From positions 1 to 32,298 of the forward strand of contig PLLR01000064.1 in assembly GCA_003141335.1 (NCBI GenBank): a stretch of 32,298 bases of DNA. Direction: 5' to 3'. This document shows, in pieces, positions 19,835 to 32,298 of this stretch. The notes under the pieces are model-generated. The model worked only from the letters and a program-made list of their open reading frames with translations. It was not told the origin of the DNA and ran no database searches. Position 1 is the stretch's first letter. Every line of letters begins with the position of its first letter. Position numbers and translations under genes: made by a program. The stretch is from Methanoregula sp. (lineage in GTDB: Archaea; Halobacteriota; Methanomicrobia; Methanomicrobiales; Methanospirillaceae).

Positions 19835-20068
19835 CCCATAATCACCTGTTCCGCTTGTGGATCTTTTTGTTGTTGCAGGAATAACAACTTCATTACAGAT
19901 TTTCTCCAGAGTATATTAATGGTATGGAAGGCGAAATCTAAAGTGTTGTTCGTGTGTTTAATAGTAAGGAATTGCCCTTTACACCTGAAGGGTGTGTGAG
20001 GAAGCTGTTTCATCCCTTGTGTCTTTTGCGATAAGCAATTAAAAAAAAATTCAAAGATTATTTTTTTA

Positions 20069-29470: not shown

Positions 29471-30628
29471 ATGACGTTTCAAAGTATCTGTGCAGTCAAG
29501 GGTGTAAAAGCATATGGGATGAAAGAAGGAAAGTTCGGGCTGACACTCATCCGTGCAAGCGGAACAGCAGCTGGTGTATTTACCGAAAATCTTGTCAAAG
29601 CAGCTCCCATTGAACTTATGCGCAAACAGATAAAAAAGGGGACAATGGAAGCAGTAATCGCAAACAGCGGGTGTGCCAATGCCTACACCGGAAAAAGAGG
29701 ATATTCAGATGCTGTTGCGATGACCGGGTTTGCAGGTTCTGCACTGGGTGTTGAACCGGATCAGGTTGGCGTTGCCAGTACAGGAGTCATTGGACGGTAT
29801 CTCGATCTCCCGCTTATTCAACGCCAGTGTGAGGCAATTGCACCGAAGATCGAATGTACCCAAGAAGCTGAAAACCTTGCAGCCCAGGCCATTTTGACGA
29901 CCGATACGTTTCCCAAACATGCACTCGTACAAAAAGAAACGTTCACTATTGGGGGAATTACCAAGGGAAGCGGGATGATCGCACCGAACATGGGGACAAT
30001 GCTCGCATTTATCTATACCGATGCGGATATCGGTGCAAAACCCCTGACGCAAGCCATCAAACTAGCTACCAGACGCACATTCAACCGCGTCGTCGTTGAT
30101 GGGGATATGAGTACGAATGATATTGCGCTTTGCACAGCAACAGGGGAATCAGGAAAGGTAAATCCTGCTGAGTTTTCACGTGCTCTTGAGGAGTGCTGTC
30201 GTTTGCTTGCACAGCAGATCGCGGCAGATGGTGAAGGTGCTACAAAATTAATAGAGGTGACCGTGAAGGGAGCGCAAAAGGAAGACGCGGCCGCAAAAGT
30301 TGCCCGCACCGTTATTGAGTCGCCCCTGGTAAAGACTGCTGTCTATGGGGAAGATCCAAACTGGGGAAGAGTGGTTGCAGCGGCCGGGCGTGCGGGTGTT
30401 GAGTTTGATCCGAATGCAATTTCACTCTGGATCAGCGATGGTACTGAGAGGTATCCGCTGGTCAGGTCCGGAGAGATTATCGCAGATCTGAAGAAGGCAA
30501 AAGGGGCAATGCACGGTAGGAAAGTGGTCTTTATTCTTGACCTTGCAGCGGGAAAAGAAGAAGCAACCGCATGGGGCTGCGATCTCACCGAACGCTACGT
30601 TGAGATCAACGGGAGGTACACCACATGA
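29471..30628 (+). CDS. argJ: Glutamate N-acetyltransferase / amino-acid acetyltransferase ArgJ, 385 aa
   Basis: [29 protein letters not shown] (autocleavage Thr), [28 protein letters not shown]. Confidence 0.96.
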
Positions 30629-31500
30629 TGAAGCGCGAGGATGTTCTTATGGAGGCGCTGCCCTACATCCAGCAGTTCCATGGCAAGACTATCGTGATCA
30701 AGCTCGGTGGGCATGCGATGGTGGACCCGGTTGTCCTCGAAAATGCCATCCGGGATGCAGTACTCCTCCATTACGTGGGAATTCGCGTGGTACTTGTGCA
30801 CGGGGGTGGCCCTGAAATATCTGAAAAGATGAAGGCGATGGGCAAAGAATCCGTCTTTATCGGGGGACTGCGGGTGACTGACCCGGAAACCCTCGAGATC
30901 GCCCAGATGGTTCTTGTTGGTAAGATCAACGCCGGGATTGTGTCCCTGATCGCTAAATGCGGCGCCCGTGGTGTCGGGCTCTCGGGCAGTGACGGCAACC
31001 TGATCATCGCAAAGAAGATGGATCTCCAGAAAATAGAGATCGGGGGTGTGCAGAAAGAAGTTGATCTCGGGCATGTCGGCGAGATCGAATGCATCGATCC
31101 GGCAATCCTGAACACGCTGCTCGATACGAGTTATATTCCGGTTGTCGCACCGATAGCGATTGATCGTTCTGGCAGGAGTTTAAACATCAATGCCGACACG
31201 GCAGCCGGCGATATTGCCGTTGCACTCAAAGCCTACAAACTCGTGAATATGACTGATGTAGACGGGGTTATGGACGCAAAACGGACTATGGTATACCGGA
31301 AACTGACCATCAATGAAGCGAATGCCATGCGGAAATCCGGGGCGATTGGTGAAGGGATGATCCCGAAAGTGAGTTCGGTGATCAGGGCAGTAGAAAATGG
31401 CGTGAATTATGCGCATATCATCAATGGCAACACCGAGCACAATCTCATTCTCGAACTCTTCACCCGAGACGGTGTCGGGACGATGATCTCCTTAAAATAA
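30625..31500 (+). CDS. argB: Acetylglutamate kinase, 291 aa
   Basis: [66 protein letters not shown] overlap with argJ. Confidence 0.96.
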
Positions 31501-31568: not shown

Positions 31569-31997
31569 ATGGACAATACGCTGAAGATAGTTTCAGGTGT
31601 AGTTATTGCGGTGCTGGCTGCCTGTGTGGTATTTTTTGTTATCTTCAATCAATCAGTAATAACGGTGTCACCTTCAGCGGATACTTCAGTTCAGAGTAAG
31701 GTTACGGTCTATTTCTTTTACGGTGAAGAATGCCCGCATTGCCATAACGTGATGCCGTTCATCCAGAATCTTTCAATAAAATATCCTGATGTGGATTTCC
31801 AGATCCTCGAGACCTGGCATAACGAGACCAATGCTAATTTTTTCAATATGATGAACGATCAGTTCCGGGTACCAAATAATAAAAGAGGTGTCCCGGAAGT
31901 AATGGTGGTCGGAAATAATACTCCTCTTATCGGAGAAGGTGACATTCCTGCATACCTAGAAGGCGTCATTCTCGAACAATTAAAAAAAAAGCAGTAA
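31569..31997 (+). CDS. Membrane-anchored thioredoxin-like protein with CPHC motif, 142 aa (0-frame product)
   Basis: N-terminal TM LKIVSGVVIAVLAACVVFFVIF then VTVYFFYGEECPHCHNVMPFIQNLSIKYPDVDFQILETWHNETN...GVPEVMVVGNNTPLIGEGDI. Confidence 0.85.
   Translation: MDNTLKIVSGVVIAVLAACVVFFVIFNQSVITVSPSADTSVQSKVTVYFFYGEECPHCHNVMPFIQNLSIKYPDVDFQILETWHNETNANFFNMMNDQFRVPNNKRGVPEVMVVGNNTPLIGEGDIPAYLEGVILEQLKKKQ
31982..31991 (+). other. Candidate -1 frameshift/slippage site: A9 run ending in A_AAA_AAG heptamer (31985-31991), one codon before the TAA stop
   Basis: 0 frame: CAA TTA AAA AAA AAG CAG TAA; -1 frame: AAA AAA GCA GTA ACT GAT GGA ACG ... continues into a second thioredoxin-like domain. Confidence 0.5.
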
Positions 31998-32298
31998 CTG
32001 ATGGAACGGAATTTCATAAGACCACTTTTTCATCAAATGTTACATCACTAAACGCGACCATCAGCGCATTTTATTTCTATGGTGACGGCTGCAGCCATTG
32101 CGAGAAGGTAAAACCCCTAATCGCAGATCTCCGCGAGAAATACCCCGAACTCGATATACAGATGTTGGAAGTCTACAATAACGTGACAAATCAGGAGACG
32201 TTTGCCCGGATGAGCCGACAGTACGGTGTCAGCAGTCCAGGAGTGCCAACAATCTATATCGGTACTACTGCAATGGTCGGGGATGTTGATATTAAAAA
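31991..32298 (+). CDS. Second thioredoxin-like domain (CSHC) in the -1 frame, no canonical start codon; runs off right edge
   Basis: Manual translation: AVTDGTEFHKTTFSSNVTSLNATISAFYFYGDGCSHCEKVKPLIADLREKYPELDIQMLEVYNNVTNQETFARMSRQYGVSSPGVPTIYIGTTAMVGDVDIK. Open from after TGA at 31940-31942; no ATG/GTG/TTG before the domain. Confidence 0.72.

Follow-up and report, generated by a model that had tools for sequence, protein, structure and literature searches.

Among the described systems nearest to the gene reported here is dnaX of Thermus thermophilus, in which a run of nine A residues (A9) in the coding sequence gives rise to a short and a long product and the length of the run is conserved (PMC1088944, PMC3711429). 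A nine-base run conserved among homologues has been taken as a sign of functional transcriptional slippage, and selection against slippage is visible from a run length of nine in many bacteria (PMC1088944). The Methanoregula gene described below shares the A9 run and the two products, but dnaX is a replication gene transcribed by a bacterial RNA polymerase. In dnaX the long product comes from the run of templated length, and so it does in one mirror-image species of Methanoregula; in the Methanoregula gene itself it gives the short one. Slippage in dnaX has been measured, whereas in Methanoregula we infer it from sequence.

Two archaeal cases are also close. The alpha-L-fucosidase gene fucA of Saccharolobus solfataricus is split by a -1 shift at an A-rich site (PMC8037382, PMC8211752); a 2021 paper described it as the sole gene in Archaea for which expression through -1 frameshifting had been demonstrated (PMC8037382). 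It has the site A_AAA_AAT, a putative stem and rare codons, and its relatives are mostly uninterrupted, whereas the Methanoregula gene has a run of 9-10 A residues, no conserved stem and 21 loci across the genus. The magnesium chelatase genes of Methanocaldococcus and Methanococcus, which are predicted to undergo frameshifting, are likewise archaeal and combine an A run with a -1 shift (PMC3711429). They differ in belonging to another protein family and to a cluster that also spans several bacterial genera; in reporter cassettes, longer A runs from this cluster gave more frameshifting (PMC3711429).

In protein architecture the comparison is with the DsbD/CcdA thiol-disulfide relays, in which one or more thioredoxin-like domains likewise adjoin a polytopic domain that has two invariant cysteines. 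Unlike the Methanoregula gene, DsbD has neither a tandem pair of thioredoxin domains nor a frame break.

We propose that one Methanoregula gene encodes two proteins through a programmed slip at a run of nine or ten A residues, most likely during transcription by RNA polymerase. Transcripts with the templated number of A residues would stop just past the run and give a membrane-anchored protein with a single thioredoxin domain. Those that gained one A, or lost two, would enter the -1 frame and give a protein of about 490-500 aa, ordered as anchor, first thioredoxin-like domain (Trx1), second thioredoxin-like domain (Trx2) and DsbD/CcdA-like membrane domain, while those in the third frame would stop at once.

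Layout of the locus

The window, meaning the whole stretch of DNA that was analysed, comprises positions 1-32,298 (+ strand) of contig PLLR01000064.1 from Methanoregula sp., assembly GCA_003141335.1. The features that concern us lie towards its right end.

29471-30628: argJ-like gene, upstream of the argB-like gene
30625..31500, + strand: argB-like upstream neighbour, a synteny marker outside the recoding signal
31569..31997, + strand: ORF1 (short product), 142 aa, N-terminal membrane anchor and Trx1
31731-31742, + strand: CPHC motif of Trx1 in ORF1
31982..31990, + strand: A9 slippage run, in the codons TTA AAA AAA AAG
31985..31991, + strand: A_AAA_AAG heptamer, in phase with ORF1 and overlapping the A9 run
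31995..31997, + strand: TAA stop of the unshifted frame, directly 3' of the A9 run
31999..32001, + strand: TGA stop in the third (+1) frame, directly 3' of the run
31991..32298, + strand: ORF2 (linker and Trx2), read in the -1 frame, which is open from 31943
32090-32101, + strand: CSHC motif of Trx2 in ORF2

ORF1 ends in L K K K Q followed by the stop, the lysines being encoded by the A9 run. Its Trx1 matches Pfam Thioredoxin with an E-value of 4e-4, slightly short of the curated cut-off, and Thioredoxin is also the Pfam match of Trx2. An earlier note, made from the sequence of the window, had described a 142-aa CPHC protein ending just past A9, an A_AAA_AAG heptamer in phase with it, and a second thioredoxin frame open from 31943 with no start codon before the fold; it had assigned only a short peptide to the ATG at 32001. 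The coordinates bear out each of these statements. In the window the ORF2 frame has no ATG, GTG or TTG ahead of the CSHC motif, and its first start codon lies 57 codons past the A run.

The right edge of the window (32298) is a placeholder of two Ns for a scaffold gap within the gene (L032 900-901), on a contig of 69 kb. Following the frame past this edge, a check that the note had proposed, showed that it runs on into a membrane domain: coding resumes beyond the gap with the rest of that domain (LSLPLVIFAAMVDSANPCG...GWMG, then a stop). Comparison of this genome with G035 shows that part of the linker between Trx2 and the membrane domain is absent at the gap. The note's one-domain and two-domain products thus stand as a short and a longer form from a programmed frame change, but its picture of the longer form as an extracytoplasmic protein with two thioredoxin domains was incomplete, as a DsbD/CcdA-like membrane domain follows them.

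Two other long A runs (A9, A10) occur in the window, at 20041 and 24846. In contrast to the run at 31982, they lie between the listed long ORFs.

The frame break in relatives

We searched 60 relatives, 46 of which gave matches, and extended the search across the order to 232 genomes. Twenty loci of the genus, including that of the window, were read base by base; a twenty-first (L152) came from a named genome collection, the records there being Methanoregula or Methanoregulaceae. All 21 recoded loci, some in single-contig genomes, show the -1 relation at A9 or A10, a recurrence far above what chance would give, and the comparison of orthologues that the note had recommended finds both the A run and the frame break conserved. 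The unshifted frame stops 0-5 codons after the run in 20/20 of the loci read in detail, and in these the +1 frame stops after 0-8 codons. Where the contig is long enough, the -1 frame stays open over about 360 codons; it is interrupted by the contig end in G032 and by the two-N gap in the window's own genome. The ORF1 of a further locus, L165 (G013), ends on A10 and its contig breaks soon after; it is probably another recoded locus.

Across the 232 genomes of the order the -1 layout was found only in g1, and g20 relatives have a stand-alone ORF1. No comparable frame break was seen in the distant bacterial and archaeal relatives that were checked. Nor did 65 other runs of A9 or longer in two single-contig congeners (G033 and G011) yield a convincing second case. 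Forty-five runs were examined in G011 without finding a further convincing recoded gene; three apparent frame changes there were rejected because by eye they look like spurious open frames. A9 matches number 142 genome-wide in G011 and 32 in G033.

Pairwise dN/dS, from pairs in which dS was often near or above 1, lay at 0.09-0.27 in Trx1 and at 0.12-0.40 in the linker together with Trx2; the membrane domain gave 0.06-0.18. Both the ORF1 and the ORF2 parts are under purifying selection, and values of 0.06-0.40 rule out a decaying or spurious downstream frame. The window does come from a draft assembly with a gap adjoining the site, and the earlier note had listed a sequencing or assembly error or a chance mutation among its alternatives. 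These are excluded by the -1 relation shared by 21 loci, with the same frames in 20+ other genomes, single-contig ones included, and with purifying selection downstream; we give error or gene decay practically no weight.

The same evidence bears on phase variation, in which replication slippage would change the length of the run in the DNA and toggle the long form between cells or strains. Runs of A9-A10 are mutable in principle, and Methanoregula has been reported as over-rich in coding runs of 8-9 A/T bases, its genome being the only archaeal one with a significant excess of them in coding genes in a 2010 survey (PMC2831843). However, among the 21 two-domain loci not one has the 'on' frame (0/21) or the +1 frame (0/21). 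Loci with A9 and loci with A10 share the -1 relation, and the length of the run has been altered by flanking substitutions, not indels. We therefore regard phase variation as extremely unlikely and, like sequencing error and decay, it was rejected on the frames of the orthologues and on dN/dS. That some programmed change of frame takes place is very probable.

Fused, split and mirror forms

Relatives without the frame break provide natural controls. The gene order argJ-argB-this gene is common to the orthologues checked, the fused and mirror forms among them, so the recoded, fused and mirror loci are positional orthologues. In G016 and G020 the gene is fused in a single frame and has no long A run. 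G019 (L058) is also fused, as a single frame of 632 aa with three tandem thioredoxin domains and the membrane domain. In G022, G006 and G008 there are two genes; the separate ORF2 begins at an ATG of its own and brings a second membrane anchor, and ORF1 ends without an A9-10 run.

These split genes are instructive for the view that ORF1 and ORF2 are two overlapping genes everywhere, with re-initiation or translational coupling starting ORF2 at a near-cognate codon next to the ORF1 stop. An NTG codon does often overlap the stop where this is TGA (CTG in several loci, TTG in G010, GTG in G024). Most loci with a TAA stop, however, including that of the window, have no ATG, GTG or TTG before Trx2, and this holds for ORF2 in most species. 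The candidate starts in the recoded loci have no Shine-Dalgarno-like motif, and ORF2 alone would lack an N-terminal anchor. Where ORF2 is a gene of its own it has both a start and an anchor, and the A run has gone. An independent start for ORF2 was rejected on the missing start codons and missing Shine-Dalgarno-like motif, and we consider overlapping genes very unlikely.

G034 (L052) has lost Trx2 and carries an A10 run, at 701-710, in frame. Read without slipping, it yields the long protein, made of Trx1 and the membrane domain; each of the other frames meets a stop within two codons. Judged by its sequence it is a mirror case: a short and a long product are still predicted, with the short one arising by slipping.

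Trees of the two halves of the gene place the recoded form in several deep clades with the other forms interspersed, although not all of the deep forks are well supported. This suggests an early origin of the recoded layout within the genus and more than one later loss. The two halves do not always agree. In the window gene (L032), G000 and G035, ORF1 groups with G025, G005, G026 and L152, while Trx2 and the membrane part group with G034, G022, G006, G008 and G001. This discordance suggests recombination within the recoded gene.

Probable slippage, by polymerase or ribosome

The same two proteins could also be made from a uniform mRNA, by -1 programmed ribosomal frameshifting at A_AAA_AAA or A_AAA_AAG. 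An in-phase copy of one or other heptamer is present in every locus, and -1 frameshifting is the one type demonstrated in Archaea, in Saccharolobus fucA (PMC8037382). The heptamer needs only seven A residues, however, and the run is never shorter than nine (A9 or A10 in 21/21 loci) although its codon phase varies three ways. The two further A residues are unexplained by ribosomal frameshifting, and their lysine positions are not conserved in non-recoded homologues. No KKK was found in the non-recoded homologues compared. The codon alignment was made with an A inserted in silico, and only the first two lysine codons in it are naturally invariant.

The codons around the run compensate for one another. 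A final A in the preceding codon occurs in 14/14 loci that have AAG as the third lysine codon and in 1/6 of those with AAA (Fisher p 4e-4; the loci are related by descent and the counts not fully independent, and this and the later p-value are indicative only). Leucine at the run is encoded by TTA in 8/8 loci where the A is needed and in 0/5 where it is not, against a background of 2.6% of the leucine codons in these genes. Among those eight loci it is the sole invariant codon of 20 shared leucine columns. Such compensation would also be expected under ribosomal frameshifting if A_AAA_AAA, with its seven A residues, were the site, the leading A being needed with AAG.

The earlier note had proposed A_AAA_AAG as the slip site, followed by a weak stem. 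The heptamer is present in the window, but AAG is not conserved: the third lysine is AAA in six of the 20 loci. The tRNA set of G011 includes a separate tRNA-Lys(CUU), and AAG would presumably be the poorer codon for ribosomal slipping there, re-pairing poorly after a -1 slip. The stem (GATGGAA with TTTCATC) also exists; in the window's own sequence the fold of the 60 nt that follow the run has a z-score of -2.5 against shuffles, a modest structure that would favour ribosomal frameshifting. It is not conserved in relatives, however: the fold z-scores range between about -2.5 and +2.5 and reveal no common structure, and a conserved downstream stem was rejected. Such a stimulatory structure usually accompanies -1 ribosomal frameshifting but is not indispensable to it.

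The third frame provides a further distinction. Stops in the +1 frame come early (combined p 0.007 over 8 clades, again indicative only), which ribosomal frameshifting does not explain. As only slippage in the transcript reaches this frame, the early stop counts in favour of transcriptional slippage.

The direction of the shift is -1 in every two-domain locus, the sole departure being G034, which is in frame and has lost Trx2. The authors of GeneTack read a direction that never varies as pointing to ribosomal frameshifting (Antonov et al.; PMC3711429). The same source states that under transcriptional slippage the direction is 'not necessarily' kept among orthologues (PMC3711429), so a uniform -1 direction is compatible with slippage by the polymerase.

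Taking these comparisons together, it is probable that two proteins are made from the one gene by a slip at A9-A10 and that this slip is mainly transcriptional, the mechanism that the earlier note had listed as an alternative. Ribosomal frameshifting as the main route, including the note's slip at A_AAA_AAG with a stem, is possible but doubtful, although transcriptional and ribosomal slipping may both contribute.

The membrane domain and a possible function

The membrane domain has two invariant cysteines, in NPC and CTGG motifs, and its predicted helices would place both within the membrane. It matches the DsbD NCBIfam model very weakly (E 0.014). Within Pfam its best match, above the cut-off when the domain is searched alone, is SfLAP (PF11139), and a sequence search of the PDB with the domain gave no hit. 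A structure model with a mean pLDDT of 71 bore out the thioredoxin fold of Trx2; its membrane part was too weak for the fold to be assigned. A fold search of the PDB with the model matched thioredoxins and glutaredoxins. The two top Foldseek hits were adrenoceptor entries with TM-scores near 0.2, which we dismissed as meaningless.

By analogy with DsbD/CcdA relays, the long form may supply its outer thioredoxin domains with reducing power passed through the membrane. The short form could then be a free partner of the long form or its acceptor.

Discussion

The Methanoregula gene is very probably a case of recoding, strongly conserved, in a domain of life where such recoding is barely documented. 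A literature search that lay mostly outside subscription journals and did not cover the GeneTack database found no programmed transcriptional slippage in Archaea and no report of archaeal RNA polymerase slipping on A9; the gene may have been listed earlier, for example in the GeneTack database. We lean, with some reserve, towards regarding it as the first well-conserved programmed transcriptional slippage in an archaeal gene, with stuttering at A9-A10 setting the ratio of two forms of a membrane thiol-redox protein and with the default and slipped products exchanging roles in one species.

The natural variants, with A9 or A10, three codon phases and fused, split and mirrored genes, make the question of polymerase or ribosome directly testable. 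As ORF2 has no start codon, annotation of one frame at a time would miss a Methanoregula redox protein of about 500 aa. Slipping at the run would govern how much small anchored thioredoxin is made relative to full trans-membrane reductase.
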